NCBI GenBank assembly: GCA_002839375.1
Contig: PGXY01000014.1
Coordinates: 1 to 47,049 of the forward strand
Source of the DNA: Spirochaetae bacterium HGW-Spirochaetae-1
GTDB taxonomy: Bacteria > Spirochaetota > UBA4802 > UBA5550
Length of the DNA stretch: 47,049 bases
Direction of reading: 5' to 3'
Shown here one piece after another: positions 41,502 through 47,049 of the stretch. The first letter of the stretch is position 1; the number at the start of each line of letters is the position of its first letter. The translations under genes were made by a program, and so were the position numbers. The notes beneath the pieces were generated by a model. It was not told the DNA's origin, ran no database searches, and saw only the letters and a list, made by a program, of their open reading frames with translations.

Positions 41502-41574
41502 TCCCCTGTAGCTCAGTCGGTAGAGCAAATGGCTGTTAACCATTGGGTCGTAGGTTCGAATCCTACCGGGGGAG
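41502..41574 (+). tRNA. tRNA-Asn (anticodon GTT)
   Basis: A 73-base cloverleaf. The acceptor stem TCCCCTG pairs with CGGGGGA, with one G-T pair. The D-stem is GCTC/GAGC, and the anticodon arm AATGG-CTGTTAA-CCATT contains anticodon GTT for asparagine. The T-arm GTAGG-TTCGAAT-CCTAC is complete. The discriminator base is G and the CCA end is not encoded after it (CAT follows). Confidence 0.95.
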
Positions 41575-41617
41575 CATAAAGGTCTGCTCCTTACCTTCGT
41601 TGAAACAGGAGCCTTGG

Positions 41618-41669: not shown

Positions 41670-41752
41670 TTGTTATTAAGCGGTAATTGGAGATATCATT
41701 CAAATTCGAGGGAGAAGACGCTGTTGTCGACGACTATATTGATTATCATTGA
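41670..41752 (+). pseudogene. HigB toxin C-terminal remnant, frameshifted
   Basis: SGNWR is read in one frame (to 41693), and ISFKFEGEDAVV-DDYIDYH followed by a stop in the next frame (41693-41752). Together these give the C-terminal pattern of HigB/RelE-type toxins (GNWRI-F-FEG-DA-DYIDYH), with one base missing between the two parts. Only about 25 residues survive; the N-terminal two thirds are gone, replaced by the tRNA terminator region. It lies 19 bases before the HigA-like gene, as in a normal higBA operon. Confidence 0.78.
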
Positions 41753-41771
41753 ATTTAGAAGGATAAACATC

Positions 41772-41993
41772 ATGAACGTGACCAAAACAAAACCTGTACA
41801 TCCGTGCGTCGTGCTTCTTGACGACGTGATAAAACCCCTTAACCTGAAAATCACCAGGGCATCGGAGTGCATGGAAATATCCAGGACAACTTTGTCAGAG
41901 CTGGTACATGGTCATTGCACACTGACGCCTGAAATGGCTGTCCGGATAGGTGAAGCCACTGGCACCACGCCGGAAAGCTGGCTGAAAATGTAG
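41772..41993 (+). CDS. higA: Truncated HigA-family antitoxin (helix-turn-helix)
   Basis: A 73 aa protein whose N-terminal pattern VHPCVVLLDDVIKPL and HTH region (ASECMEISRTTLSELVHG) are of the HigA/VapI XRE type. AAGGA lies nine bases before ATG 41772. Normal HigA continues about 20-25 residues beyond WLKM; here a TAG stop follows WLKM, and the next codons (AAC AGG) would read N-R as in a Q-N-R continuation, as if a CAG had become TAG. With its toxin partner reduced to a fragment, this is either a free regulator or a decaying gene. An ATG further upstream (41670 frame) belongs to the toxin remnant and is not used. Confidence 0.7.
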   Translation: MNVTKTKPVHPCVVLLDDVIKPLNLKITRASECMEISRTTLSELVHGHCTLTPEMAVRIGEATGTTPESWLKM

Positions 41994-42025
41994 AACAGGT
42001 TATTCCTAACTTATATATTCCTGCG

Positions 42026-43084
42026 TTACCAGTTGACTTCCTGATTCTTCCATAATTTGAAAAGGGTGACAAAAGAAAAAATCAACATGCCAATGCCACC
42101 GATAATATTTATTACAAGAATTGTTCCTGTTAAGTAGAAAAATCCCAGCACCATAAAATAAAGGGTAACAAGGTTTCTTTTCAGGGCAACGGTTACAATT
42201 TCAACAAGAAGACCTTTTTTCTTAAGCTCTTTACTGATAGCCTGGAGGCTCCCTGAATCGGTAGTTTTTGAAAGGGTCAGGAAAAGGAATAACACATTTA
42301 ATATATATATGATAATAGATACTATTCCCAGAATCATGCTGGCCTGTGTCTGGTTTATCTCATAATTCTTATATGCAATGGCAATCACAAAAAACAGTGT
42401 ACAGAAATTGTCTCCCACCGTATCGAGCCATTCACCTGACTTTGAGTAAGCATATTTTACTCGTGCCAGTTCTCCGTCAACACAGTCAAATACAATAGCC
42501 ATTGGCTGCAAGATAAGTCCTAAGTAATAGATATACCACTTATCACTGACTAACATTATGCTACCCACGAGCCCGACAAGGACAAAAAACGCCGTAACCA
42601 TATTGGGAGTAATAAAGGTTGTTCTGCATACATATTTTGTAAAGAAGAGTGACAGATAACGGTAGTAATGACTGCTGAAGGCTTCGCCCGGCTTTCTGCA
42701 GCTGTTTAAAATAGCTTTCTCGGCTATTTTATACGATGACGGGTCTGTCAATTCCTGGTAGACCGTATTCGGGGCAGTTGGTTTACCCGTCAGTTTCACA
42801 ATATATTCCTTGTTGATTATCGAAGATACATTAATACTGAGGATTCCTTTTTTAAAGTTGTTTTCTTTGTAGGGTTTTTCTTTTGATATTTTTATACCTA
42901 AATTCAGGTCAGAAAGTTTTTGAACACTTTCCGGTATAATGATAGTGTCATTTTCATGAATTATTTCAATTTTTTTAGATCCTGCATAATAGCATGAGAG
43001 TATTGCCCTCTCTAATACAGTAAGTCCGCAGATTTTCTGATTAAAGTCAACACCTGTGTTGCAGTTTAATTTTGCTGTTGTCAT
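42026..43084 (-). CDS. CDP-alcohol phosphotransferase with degenerate nucleotidyltransferase N-terminus (1)
   Basis: A 352 aa membrane protein. The C-terminal half has the CDP-alcohol phosphotransferase motif D-x2-DG-x2-AR-x8-G-x3-D-x3-D, seen as D200, D203-G204, A207-R208, G217, D221, D225, in a block of about six helices. This family joins an alcohol phosphate to a CDP-activated alcohol (phospholipid heads, or di-inositol phosphate). The N-terminal 130 residues (CGLTVLERAILSCYYAG) resemble the core of a sugar-nucleotidyltransferase fold, but lack the usual LAAGxGxR nucleotide loop. The architecture recalls archaeal IPCT/DIPPS fusions. A weak GGAA site precedes ATG 43084. It diverges from the cytidylyltransferase; the space between is AT-rich. 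Product unknown. Confidence 0.85.
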   Translation of the reverse strand: MTTAKLNCNTGVDFNQKICGLTVLERAILSCYYAGSKKIEIIHENDTIIIPESVQKLSDLNLGIKISKEKPYKENNFKKGILSINVSSIINKEYIVKLTGKPTAPNTVYQELTDPSSYKIAEKAILNSCRKPGEAFSSHYYRYLSLFFTKYVCRTTFITPNMVTAFFVLVGLVGSIMLVSDKWYIYYLGLILQPMAIVFDCVDGELARVKYAYSKSGEWLDTVGDNFCTLFFVIAIAYKNYEINQTQASMILGIVSIIIYILNVLFLFLTLSKTTDSGSLQAISKELKKKGLLVEIVTVALKRNLVTLYFMVLGFFYLTGTILVINIIGGIGMLIFSFVTLFKLWKNQEVNW

Positions 43085-43477
43085 AATGTTTTTTCCAGTT
43101 TAATTATAATAGAGGTTAAAGTCAGCAGTTTATAAAATTTTTGAAAGGCTGGCTTTAAATAATAAAATAATTCACAAGTGCTACAAAAATTTGCAAAATA
43201 TTTTTCAATCATTCATTTAAATATAATTTTTCTGCCAAAGTCAATTTCCTGTGATCATTTTAATATAATTATAAAAAATTATTTACACCCCGATACAATA
43301 TAAATAACATGTTAATTGTTATTTCAAATGACTACTAAATGACTTTTAGTACTAATTTATGTCAATATTAATTTGACTGAACAGAAGCACCTGCGGTACT
43401 GATAATTCCGCAAGTGCACACAACATATTCTGTTGGATGAATTGTTTGAGTTTTTAACCACATGAGGAGTAATTGCC
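43085..43477. other. AT-rich divergent intergenic region with a hairpin
   Basis: No gene is seen in these 393 bases. GCAC-TGCGG (43387-43396) pairs with CCGCA-GTGC (43408-43417) in a hairpin with an 11-base loop, about 60 bases before the cytidylyltransferase start. It lies in that gene's untranslated leader and could influence its translation. It is not followed by T and is not a terminator in appearance. A TTGACT at 43373-43378 is a weak -35 candidate with no clear partner. Confidence 0.5.
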
Positions 43478-43909
43478 ATGGTGAAAATAGGATATACAAC
43501 TGGTGTTTTTGACCTTTTTCATATCGGTCATCTTAATGTCCTGCGCAATGCAAAGCTTGAGTGCGACTTTTTAATTGTAGGCGTTACCACTGATGAATTA
43601 TCAGAAAATGAAAAAGGTAAAAAGCCCATAATTCCATTCACTGAAAGAATGACAATTGTTGAAAGCATCAAATATGTTGATATGGTAGTGCCCCAGACCA
43701 GCTATGATAAATTTGAAGCCTGGAATAATCTGAAGTTCAATATTATGTTTGTAGGTGATGACTGGAAAGGGACGCCAAAATGGGACAAACTTGAAAAAGA
43801 TTTTAACGAGAAAGGAGTCATCATTCATTATTTTCCCTATACACAGCATACATCCAGTACGAAGTTAAGATCTGTTCTTGACAAGATTTATGGAGCGGAA
43901 AAGGCCTGA
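43478..43909 (+). CDS. Cytidylyltransferase, glycerol-3-phosphate (TagD) type
   Basis: A 143 aa enzyme of the nucleotidyltransferase superfamily. HIGH (15-18) binds the nucleotide. ERMTIVESIKYVDMV follows the RMxxVxxxxyVD pattern, and TSSTKLR closes the active site, in the TagD/glycerol-3-phosphate cytidylyltransferase group. It would make CDP-glycerol or another CDP-activated alcohol from the phosphate and CTP. GAGGAG lies nine bases before ATG 43478. It sits between two CDP-alcohol phosphotransferases, both of which lack an intact nucleotidyltransferase site, so it may supply their substrate. The substrate is not fixed by sequence; ethanolamine or inositol phosphate types remain possible. 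Confidence 0.88.
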   Translation: MVKIGYTTGVFDLFHIGHLNVLRNAKLECDFLIVGVTTDELSENEKGKKPIIPFTERMTIVESIKYVDMVVPQTSYDKFEAWNNLKFNIMFVGDDWKGTPKWDKLEKDFNEKGVIIHYFPYTQHTSSTKLRSVLDKIYGAEKA

Positions 43910-43990
43910 ATTACCACAGACCTCTGAAGTTTAATTATTTATCATAAGCCCTTAATGTGACATGATTAAAGCAATACAAGGAAGCCCACT

Positions 43991-45187
43991 ATGTTTGTTA
44001 TAATAAAAAACACCGAATATGCTAAGCAAAAAATCTGGGGCATGACGCTGCTGGAGAGAAATGTCCGAATTTTTTCTCAGAATGAAAATATATCTGAAAT
44101 ATACATTTTAACGGATAGATCCATTACTCTAAGAGATGATTATTACAAATGGAACAAAAAACCCTTCACTGAAATCCACAATGTATCACAAATAAAAGGA
44201 AACGGGAAATTCATTTTTGCCGATGCTAACCTGGTTTTTGATGAAAGGCTCATCGACAACTGCCTGAAAAAAAACAATGTATTTGTGGATTTTGCAAACA
44301 ACAGAGAAGGGATGTTTATTGTATCTGATTTTTCATATGAAACACTCAACTTTATTTTAAACTCAAACCTTGAACAATTGAAAGAAAAGTATGCTCCTTA
44401 TAAAACAGCGGATATGGAGAAATATATACTTAAGCTTCGCAGAATCCAGGAGCCTTTTCTGCTCTATATTAAAAACAGAGCAGATGTTAAATTTGCTGAA
44501 GATCTATCTTTTAAAAGATCATACAAAGGGGTAACGGATATTGTAACGCAATATGTTTATCCTCCATTGATTAAACGATTGGTCAAATTGACCTCGCCAA
44601 CCAATATCACACCAAACCAGATTACATATGTTTCGATGTTCCTTTCTTTTGGTAGTGTTCCTCTTTATTACTACGGATCTTTTGCACTGGCGATAGCCTC
44701 AGGAATTATAATGTCGATTCTTGACAGCTTGGACGGTAAGCTGGCCAGACTCACATATAGGACCTCTGACAGTGGGGATAAACTTGATCATTTTTCCGAT
44801 ATAATTTATTTATCGCTATGGTATATATGTATAGGTCTTTTTCTTGCAAATGCCTTCCCTGAACAAGCTACTACAATACATGTATGGAATGTTGTTTTAA
44901 ACACATGTTATTTCGCTGATAGGATTACAACCGGGCTTTTCAAAAAAATTTACAAATATGAACTTCACGATTTCAATTCAATTGATAGGTTTTTCAGACG
45001 CATACAACAGCGGCGCAATATAACGCTCCTCTTGCTTTTAACCGGCTATTTCGTTCCGGGAGGTTTTTTATCGGCATTCCTGTTCAACACAGCATGGATG
45101 CTAATTTCCTTCGGGTTTCATCTTTACAGGTTTATTTTCCTTGCGGTATTTCAGCTGGTGAGCGGAAGACCCCTGGAAAAACGCTAA
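43991..45187 (+). CDS. CDP-alcohol phosphotransferase with degenerate nucleotidyltransferase N-terminus (2)
   Basis: A 398 aa membrane protein. The C-terminal domain carries the motif as D245, D248-G249, A252-R253, G262, D266, D270. The lead-in KGVTDIVTQYVYPPLIKRLV and ITPNQITYVSM is typical of the family. The N-terminal 170 residues resemble a nucleotidyltransferase (WGMTLLERNVRIF, FIFADANLVFD), but have no GxGxR loop. Same overall plan as 42026-43084, though the sequences differ clearly. AAGGA lies eight bases before ATG 43991. It follows the cytidylyltransferase by 81 bases on the same strand, so the two probably work together. Confidence 0.85.
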   Translation: MFVIIKNTEYAKQKIWGMTLLERNVRIFSQNENISEIYILTDRSITLRDDYYKWNKKPFTEIHNVSQIKGNGKFIFADANLVFDERLIDNCLKKNNVFVDFANNREGMFIVSDFSYETLNFILNSNLEQLKEKYAPYKTADMEKYILKLRRIQEPFLLYIKNRADVKFAEDLSFKRSYKGVTDIVTQYVYPPLIKRLVKLTSPTNITPNQITYVSMFLSFGSVPLYYYGSFALAIASGIIMSILDSLDGKLARLTYRTSDSGDKLDHFSDIIYLSLWYICIGLFLANAFPEQATTIHVWNVVLNTCYFADRITTGLFKKIYKYELHDFNSIDRFFRRIQQRRNITLLLLLTGYFVPGGFLSAFLFNTAWMLISFGFHLYRFIFLAVFQLVSGRPLEKR

Positions 45188-45213
45188 ATTTGTTTGTAAA
45201 AATGAACTCTGCC

Positions 45214-45254
45214 TTTCCCACCCTGCTCTTCACCATTGAATCCAGGATGGGAAA
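45214..45254. terminator. Hairpin between converging genes
   Basis: TTTCCCACCCTG (45214-45225) pairs with CAGGATGGGAAA (45243-45254), with one mismatch. It lies between the genes ending at 45187 and 45280. The T- and A-runs are not well formed, so the terminator role is probable only by position. Confidence 0.5.
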
Positions 45255-45279
45255 TCGTGGAAATGGCTCGTTAAGTAGA

Positions 45280-46872
45280 TTAAAATAATTTTTCCATACC
45301 TTCCATATATTTATCATTGCTCATGGATAAAATATCAGCACAGTTTTCATCTACTTCAATCAGGCCCATTTTCCATAAATTGCGAATAAATGATATTTGT
45401 GATATCAAATCATGGTAGGTAAGAAGAGGCAATGCGTTCGGAAATTTGGGAGTTTTTTCATCGAGAATAATCCCAGGATAATTTTTATGATAAGGTTTTT
45501 CAGAAAGAAAAAAATTACTATGAAAAATTTTTATTTTTGATGTTTCATAGTGAAGTATATCATATACTATACAGGGAATAGCATTAGGCTTTTTATTAAA
45601 AAACATCTTGTTTTTTATTAATACTTTTGCTTTTCTTTGCTTGACATCAATGTTGACAAAGCCCGAAAATGGATGCTTAACAAAATAATAATCAAGGTCT
45701 TTCACAAATTGCTTCGGTTGCTCTTTTTTCATTTTCAGAAAGGTGGCTGCATAAAGAGTCACATTTGTTTTTGCACCGAATTCATTTTGTGACAAGCGGA
45801 CATCTCCCCCCATATAATTCATGCGGATAACAATATCACAAGAATCAATCTCGCTGCCGGTACTCAAGCCAGTTGGAGCAGGACCTACAATTGCTACCTT
45901 TTTATTTCGAAAATAATCAGCAAAGATTTTATCTGATTTTGTCAGACTCTTTTCCCAGAGCTTTCTCGCATTATTGATATCGCCGGTTAATAAAAAAAAG
46001 TATGCCTGCAAATCCTGATATTTTTTTAATAAAATTATTTTTTCTAATCGCTTTAACAGTTTTTTAGCAAGAGAGAAGTCAGCTATTTCAAAAGCAGCGA
46101 AAAGAGCCCGTTCATTATATACAGGATTTTCAGGTTCTGATTCAGCTTCGGCAAATACCTGATCAATTGCTTTATTCCTGGCCACAAAACCACTTTGAAG
46201 TAATCCATTAAATATCAGAATATTATACAAACACATCCATGTTTCAGATGAATAAATCGGGTTATGCACTTCTATATCGATTTTAAACTTATCAAGCACT
46301 TCACTTCCCGATTTTTTATGAAGAAGATAACTTTCAAGATTTACCAAGAAATTAGTTATAAATATATCTGCTGAATCAATTCCGTGAGCTCTAAGTATAT
46401 TTTTTACTGCCGAAAGAACTCCATCATTATCCTTTTTATTTTTAAGTTCTTCAGCCCAATAAAGATGAGAATGAGTCAATTGCATAAGCATTTTTTTATT
46501 CATCTTTATGCCGTTTTCTGCGGCATCCATAAAAAAAACAGAAACAGTGGCCCAAGAAGGTGTTTTAAAAACAACCTCAGGGTGAGAGGTTCTGTAATTA
46601 TAGGCAAAGAGCGCACTACTGTATAAAACTCCGCCGTAGTACCTGCAAATTCTTTGATTTTTCCATATAAAATGTTTTGGCGGGAACTTTGTTCCATACT
46701 TGTCAACCAGCATGTTAACAGATTTAAGAACTTCATGCAAATCCCTTTTCCATAATAGAACTCCAGCTAAAAGAATATTTATTTTAAATGAAATTCTGGG
46801 AGTCCATATTGCAAACTTAAGCAGTAATTGCAAAATATTAAAAACAATATTTTTTATGTTAAGACAAAGCAT
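45280..46872 (-). CDS. GT29 (sialyltransferase)-like glycosyltransferase with helical N-terminus
   Basis: A 530 aa protein (ATG 46872 with AGAGG six bases before; GTG 46887 in frame is rejected). The N-terminal 300 residues are helical with TPR-like pairs (AFEIADFSLAKKLLKRLEK, LTGDINNARKLWEKSL). The C-terminal part has VAIVGPAPTG (about 326-335) and EIDSCDIVIRMNYM, the L-motif of family 29 sialyltransferases. A later PNALPLLTYHDLI stretch could be the S-motif area. No signal peptide; the first hydrophobic segment (about 12-26) may be a membrane anchor. It would transfer a sugar, possibly sialic or another nonulosonic acid, to a surface glycan; no sialic-acid synthesis gene is seen in the window. 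AT-rich like its neighbours. Confidence 0.72.
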   Translation of the reverse strand: MLCLNIKNIVFNILQLLLKFAIWTPRISFKINILLAGVLLWKRDLHEVLKSVNMLVDKYGTKFPPKHFIWKNQRICRYYGGVLYSSALFAYNYRTSHPEVVFKTPSWATVSVFFMDAAENGIKMNKKMLMQLTHSHLYWAEELKNKKDNDGVLSAVKNILRAHGIDSADIFITNFLVNLESYLLHKKSGSEVLDKFKIDIEVHNPIYSSETWMCLYNILIFNGLLQSGFVARNKAIDQVFAEAESEPENPVYNERALFAAFEIADFSLAKKLLKRLEKIILLKKYQDLQAYFFLLTGDINNARKLWEKSLTKSDKIFADYFRNKKVAIVGPAPTGLSTGSEIDSCDIVIRMNYMGGDVRLSQNEFGAKTNVTLYAATFLKMKKEQPKQFVKDLDYYFVKHPFSGFVNIDVKQRKAKVLIKNKMFFNKKPNAIPCIVYDILHYETSKIKIFHSNFFLSEKPYHKNYPGIILDEKTPKFPNALPLLTYHDLISQISFIRNLWKMGLIEVDENCADILSMSNDKYMEGMEKLF

Positions 46873-47049
46873 TATAATCCTCTCCACTTATTACGTCATT
46901 CGATGTATAGGAGTTTATTGACAAATATTAAAAAAATATTCTTTTTCCCTCTATACCCTGTTTTAATAATTCTTAGATTCAACAATTAAGTGCAACACCT
47001 TTCTTCAAAAACAATTCCATCGGTGTTGAAAAATCAAGCCGTTTTCTCG

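Follow-up and report, generated by a model that had tools for sequence, protein, structure and literature searches.

The contig PGXY01000014.1 of Spirochaetae bacterium HGW-Spirochaetae-1, which at 47,049 bases is in its entirety the window analysed here (the genome measures 5.2 Mb), carries near one end two phosphotransferases of the cytidine diphosphate (CDP)-alcohol type, CAP1 and CAP2, and a stand-alone TagD-like cytidylyltransferase between them. The pairing of a TagD-like gene with a CDP-alcohol transferase gene appears to be recurrent in surface-polysaccharide loci, with two independent examples found elsewhere. The version in the window differs in that its transferase is headed and belongs to another branch; it combines known parts in a modestly new way and is not a new system. 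The reading that we tentatively prefer, and would stop just short of calling probable, is that the TagD-like enzyme makes a CDP-alcohol, that CAP2 passes the phospho-alcohol on to an acceptor, either a glycan or lipid-linked, that CAP1 acts separately, and that the block as a whole was acquired horizontally. The genes and their motifs, the missing loop, the family assignments, the base composition and the recurring pair are observations; the reaction, with its substrates and product, and the part played by the heads are inferred. The features concerned are as follows.

42026..43084, minus strand: CAP1, a CDP-alcohol phosphotransferase of 352 residues (open reading frame, Pfam match, signature).
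43085..43477, no strand: the AT-rich spacer that separates the divergent CAP1 and TagD-like genes, 26% guanine plus cytosine (GC), inside which both promoters are presumed to lie.
43478..43909, plus strand: the TagD-like stand-alone cytidylyltransferase, 143 residues (HIGH motif, GDDWKG).
43991..45187, plus strand: CAP2, a CDP-alcohol phosphotransferase of the CpgA-like branch, 398 residues (Pfam, signature, tree).

All three open reading frames stand where an earlier, sequence-only reading of the window had placed them. That reading ascribed the full catalytic motif to both phosphotransferases, and it was right. The signature D-x2-DG-x2-AR-x8-G-x3-D-x3-D is present exactly at residues 200-225 of CAP1 (DCVDGELARVKYAYSKSGEWLDTVGD) and at residues 245-270 of CAP2 (DSLDGKLARLTYRTSDSGDKLDHFSD), and the full eight-residue pattern did not appear in any of 200,000 shuffles of either protein. 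Both are members of the superfamily described by Pfam CDP-OH_P_transf (PF01066), with 38.5 bits for CAP1 and 46.3 bits for CAP2 against a cut-off of 22. The separate TagD-like HIGH enzyme reported to lie between them was also recovered: the protein matches Pfam CTP_transf_like (PF01467) with 69.8 bits (cut-off 21, E 3.5e-19) and carries G-x-FD-x-FHIGH and GDDWKG as in TagD, with HIGH at residues 15-18. No second gene of this kind was found in the genome. The gene lies upstream of CAP2 in the same direction, with a gap of 81 base pairs (bp), and CAP1 diverges from it across 393 bp. Since CAP1 is read from the other strand, a shared transcript is possible only for the TagD-like gene and CAP2. 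Promoter- and terminator-like matches, including those in the divergent spacer, were not above chance.

The nearest relative of the TagD-like protein in its phylum is 79% identical and is encoded in genome G764. At that locus (L131) a gap of 2 bp separates the TagD-like gene from a downstream gene for a headless CDP-alcohol transferase, and both lie in an exopolysaccharide cluster that also encodes a flippase, an EpsG polymerase and glycosyltransferases. The second example comes from Actinomyces oris: in 72,556 plasmid records, this was the single one in which a relative of the G764 transferase turned up. Here a TagD-like gene (about 44% identical) is found 3.6 kilobases from a related headless transferase, with a flippase between the two. 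The transferases of both pairs have 236-244 residues, lack a head and belong to a branch other than that of CAP2. Capsule loci house other relatives of the TagD-like protein (44-57%), next to genes for CDP-glycerol glycerophosphotransferase or LicD. CDP-glycerol glycerophosphotransferase (PF04464) was not found in the genome of the window, in a search whose controls in B. subtilis, Bacteroides and L. lactis gave matches. This absence makes CAP2, or else CAP1, the likelier user of the CDP-alcohol, in a survey that did not extend to LicD. A further set of TagD-like relatives, 55-64% identical, adjoins asparagine-synthase-like domain proteins in the polysaccharide loci L092, L132, L133 and L137, and by eye in L135, so that this combination too is a recurrent one.

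According to the sequence-only reading, the activating role may have moved to the stand-alone enzyme, leaving the emptied heads of the transferases for substrate binding or regulation. The first half of this idea, a division of labour between the TagD-like enzyme and CAP2, is plausible because the two genes are co-directional and similar pairs recur in polysaccharide loci. In the mechanism that we propose, the TagD-like enzyme would use cytidine triphosphate to activate a small phosphorylated alcohol. The first guess is glycerol 3-phosphate, and hence CDP-glycerol as the product, since among characterised enzymes TagD comes nearest in terms of family models. CAP2, predicted to be a six-helix-type membrane CDP-alcohol phosphotransferase, would displace cytidine monophosphate and join the phospho-alcohol to a hydroxyl or phosphate of the acceptor, which is probably a lipid-linked saccharide or a surface glycan. 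Its head would be a loop-less nucleotidyltransferase relic that takes no part in nucleotide activation; like the head of AF2299, it probably has a docking or stabilising role on the cytosolic side. CAP1 would be a separate AF2299/DIPPS-like transferase, divergently transcribed, with a donor and an acceptor of its own, and the block would have arrived horizontally next to a tRNA-Asn gene. Inositol phosphate is a possible acceptor for CAP1, since the genome has inositol-phosphate synthase; of the two loci that encode it, neither has an obvious adjoining transferase. A sphingolipid is the less likely acceptor, as a search with a Roseomonas query, run without a positive control, found no serine palmitoyltransferase-like gene in the genome.

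Several points weigh against this mechanism. The TagD-like protein reaches 96.8 bits with the glycerol-3-phosphate cytidylyltransferase model TIGR01518, whose cut-off is 165.4, and its alcohol may therefore differ from glycerol phosphate. The best pairs of TagD-like enzyme and CDP-alcohol transferase use headless transferases of another branch, so that the analogy to CAP2 is indirect. The branch nearest to CAP2 whose setting has been worked out, the CpgA-like one, draws on CDP-glycerate made by a CpgD-type nucleotidyltransferase and has a sphingolipid as acceptor, that is, neither TagD nor a glycan (PMC12275187). Finally, the window holds no glycan-assembly genes besides one weakly GT29-like gene.

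The second half of the idea, the emptied heads, fared differently. CAP1 consists of a head (about residues 1-115) followed by a membrane domain, and CAP2 is built in the same order. That both heads lack the nucleotide loop, as the sequence-only reading had it, was borne out: the loop is present in 0/24 CAP1-type and 0/7 CAP2-type proteins (31 aligned rows in all, CAP1 and CAP2 among them), against 7 of 9 control nucleotidyltransferases. The nucleotide-binding loop of the cytidylyltransferase head, by which IPCT/DIPPS proteins are recognised, is thus missing from CAP1 and CAP2. Their scores with the IPCT/DIPPS model NCBIfam NF041135 are 56.7 and 41.6 bits, respectively, at a cut-off of 580.

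The nucleotidyltransferase-like character of the heads could be upheld for CAP1, and for CAP2 on weaker profile evidence only. The profile of the 24 CAP1-type proteins matches AF2299 (4o6m) from residue 35 to residue 332, head included, with an E value of 3.8e-43, and by the homology of its head CAP1 falls in the AF2299-like headed group. The CAP2 profile matches the membrane domain of 4o6m, and its alignment to the AF2299 head is not significant. It does align to the CAP1 profile across the head region (probability 99%), and its match to the IPCT/DIPPS fusion begins inside the nucleotidyltransferase domain. Profile comparison of the two families with genuine nucleotidyltransferases was weak (probability 5% and 24%), probably because the set of the latter was small and mixed. 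The profile link via AF2299 was used instead. A Pfam scan of the CAP1-type members gave an NTP_transf_3 match in 2 of 24 (best E 0.0078), and the AlphaFold2 models have low confidence, with a predicted local distance difference test score of 44 for CAP1 (single sequence) and 48 for CAP2 (two sequences).

Many related genomes, from the same family, order and phylum, encode CAP1-type proteins with a similar head, and within the stretches read in about two dozen genomes no TagD-like gene was found near a CAP1-type gene. Because loop-less heads also occur in relatives without a nearby TagD-like gene, the heads were not emptied by this enzyme taking over. The loop is missing across both families, and in AF2299 as well, and the causal part of the earlier idea is not supported. 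AF2299 has a cytosolic, loop-less cytidylyltransferase-like domain and accommodates CDP-glycerol (PMC4634129). To judge from the alignments, the empty head of these CDP-alcohol transferases is a general family trait, already crystallised, and not a marker of a new pathway.

CAP1 and CAP2 belong to different subfamilies of CDP-alcohol transferases. In a tree built on the membrane domains, with support quoted as pairs of values, CAP2 groups with L006, a protein of a Cytophagales metagenome-assembled genome (40% identity), and with plasmid proteins (97/90). All of these share the extra motif F-x3-YKG-x-TD, found at residues 174-183 of CAP2, and a C-terminal RRN. L006 is the only close relative of CAP2, and a flippase-like gene adjoins it. 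CAP2 turned out to be rare: of 393 genomes of its phylum only its own gave a full-length match, on the L006 side (390 genomes of the order, 395 of the phylum) only that of L006 did, and a scan of viral contigs gave no match. Around the plasmid relatives, each of the four records has a nucleotidyltransferase gene together with LptF/LptG permeases, a metallophosphoesterase and a kinase-like gene of the diacylglycerol or acylglycerol type; a ceramide-type fatty acyl-AMP ligase is present in three of them. The Caulobacter ceramide-phosphoglycerate cluster has this content, and the name "CpgA-like" is taken from that gene content, not from the Caulobacter sequence. The plasmid clusters are L088 (pDCB2), L089 (pPNP1), L090 and L091; two are from soil or sludge Diaphorobacter and Pseudomonas, and pDCB2 carries two CpgA-like transferases.

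The company that CAP2 keeps in the tree, together with the shared motif and RRN end, also speaks for a different reading, in which CAP2 is of the CpgA type. It would then place phosphoglycerate or phosphoglycerol on a phosphorylated lipid with a ceramide-phosphate-like head group, and the TagD-like enzyme would replace CpgD. The formation of CPG2 depends on CpgA, for which CDP-glycerate is the proposed substrate (PMC12275187, PMC11324152). However, the search for a serine palmitoyltransferase-like gene mentioned above came back empty, and CpgB-, CpgC- and CpgD-like genes and Lpt permeases are not found beside CAP2 in the window. We consider this reading unlikely, though it deserves to be kept in view. 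A bolder proposal, which we also regard as doubtful, is that a CpgA-like headed transferase has exchanged a donor of the CpgD type and a sphingolipid acceptor for a CDP-alcohol donor of the TagD type, with an undescribed phospho-alcohol-modified glycan or non-sphingolipid outer-membrane lipid as the product.

CAP1 forms a long branch among the AF2299/DIPPS-like proteins, outside the orthologues of its own order, and the tree does not fix its exact position. The genome has, in addition, a vertically inherited CAP1-type gene (L047:9743-10870, minus strand; contig C1 about 129742-130869) in a neighbourhood common to many related genomes. The protein is full-length with a broken signature, DGVNDEVSK...GDWIETIGN, in which D, G, A, R and both last D are changed, and it may be a pseudoenzyme; its orthologues retain DGVDGEVAK...GGWLD...D. 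The intact island copy, CAP1, may or may not compensate for it. Most of the order-wide orthologues have K for the signature arginine (DGVDGEVAK) with the motifs otherwise intact (L048, L050, L051, L053, L055, L058-L060, L062, L064-L066 and L068).

Soluble products are an improbable alternative to a glycan or lipid-linked one. CAP1 and CAP2 would here make phosphodiesters of the di-myo-inositol-phosphate or glycerophospho-inositol type, i.e., compatible solutes, with the TagD-like enzyme supplying CDP-glycerol. The closest solved relatives, AF2299 and IPCT/DIPPS, act on soluble substrates (PMC4634129), and the inositol-phosphate synthase of the genome would fit. On the other hand, neither a fused nor a stand-alone inositol-phosphate cytidylyltransferase was identified, and in bacteria the loci that hold relatives of CAP2 or of the TagD-like gene are lipid or polysaccharide loci and not solute pathways.

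The sequence-only reading itself saw in the three genes one island, a co-evolved pathway in which two empty-headed transferases share the stand-alone cytidylyltransferase. The genes are physically clustered and have a low GC content in common. Nevertheless, CAP1 lies on the opposite strand and comes from a different branch than CAP2, and the heads are equally empty in relatives that have no cytidylyltransferase nearby. When the same set was sought elsewhere, it was found in no other genome, in surveys that included the 393 genomes of the phylum and the 390 and 395 of the order and phylum of L006; the island thereby fails a test that the sequence-only reading had itself set for it. As a functional unit the island is quite improbable.

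The setting of the genes bears on their origin. Two further features border or share the block.

41502..41575, plus strand: tRNA-Asn(gtt), bordering the AT-rich block; a possible integration site, outside the pathway.
45280..46887, minus strand: a convergent neighbour of 535 residues with a weak GT29 (sialyltransferase)-like C-terminal domain, in the same AT-rich block and possibly part of the module.

Positions 42000-46900 have a GC content of 34%, against a background of 46%, with a spread of 42-51% in equally long stretches elsewhere in the window. The AT-rich block starts just past the tRNA-Asn gene and includes the GT29-like gene, and the contig stops at 47049, 160 bp past the latter. Its composition suggests that the block was probably acquired horizontally, beside tRNA-Asn. 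A second copy of the 3' end of the tRNA gene, as an integration repeat would leave, was not found in the window. The genes could also have come together by chance, as decaying or transient acquisitions that do nothing jointly in the host. For this one could cite the rarity of CAP2 among relatives (1/393 phylum genomes) and the position at a contig end beside a tRNA and an apparent HigBA remnant, but it is most improbable, since all three open reading frames are intact and their active-site motifs complete.

In the 535-residue protein the weak GT29 match covers residues 340-460, the long N-terminal part has no family, and no plasmid relatives of the protein were found. Directly after the tRNA-Asn gene, positions 41699-41752 (plus strand, FKFEGEDAVVDDYIDYH) read like what we take to be the last codons of a HigB toxin only. 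They are followed by a HigA-family antitoxin gene at 41772-41993 (plus strand; NCBIfam TIGR02607), and 41699-41993 (plus strand) looks like the remnant of a HigBA toxin-antitoxin pair.

Anionic sphingolipids support growth of Caulobacter free of lipopolysaccharide; CpgA is their CDP-alcohol transferase, and its reaction has not been demonstrated. CAP2 as a distant relative, together with a small soluble cytidylyltransferase, makes a system of two proteins whose donor and reaction would be open to assay in vitro. In the Caulobacter cluster CpgD makes CDP-glycerate, and CpgA, required for CPG2, is its proposed user (PMC12275187, PMC11324152, PMC13228409). CAP2 shares its branch, head type and extra motifs with the plasmid transferases of Diaphorobacter, Pseudomonas and Roseomonas, which stand here with CpgA of Caulobacter crescentus (CCNA_01217/CC_1159), and all are thought to pair with a separate cytidylyltransferase. 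The CpgA system differs in its CpgD-type partner and ceramide acceptor, whereas the partner of CAP2 is TagD-like and its surroundings lack sphingolipid genes.

Among solved structures, the archaeal comparison drawn by the sequence-only reading was well chosen, as IPCT/DIPPS (4mnd) and AF2299 (4o6m) are the best relatives. AF2299 of Archaeoglobus fulgidus (PDB 4o6m/4o6n/4q7c) resembles CAP1 in its loop-less head leading into a membrane domain, in the signature and in a full-length family alignment. Unlike the window proteins it is archaeal, CAP1 is distant from it (long branch), and a stand-alone TagD-like partner is no part of its description. The IPCT/DIPPS fusion likewise joins a nucleotidyltransferase-type head to a CDP-alcohol phosphotransferase, but IPCT heads carry out cytidylyl transfer, whereas CAP1 and CAP2 have no nucleotide loop and remain far under the cut-off of its family model. 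TagD of Bacillus subtilis (1coz) has the HIGH motif and GDDW-x-G in common with the TagD-like protein and aligns with it over the full length at 35% identity; the window protein is under the TagD equivalog cut-off and has YTQHTSS in place of RTEGIST. The G764 and Actinomyces oris pairs likewise have TagD-like and CDP-alcohol transferase activities side by side, and differ from the window in that their transferase is headless and of another branch than CAP2.

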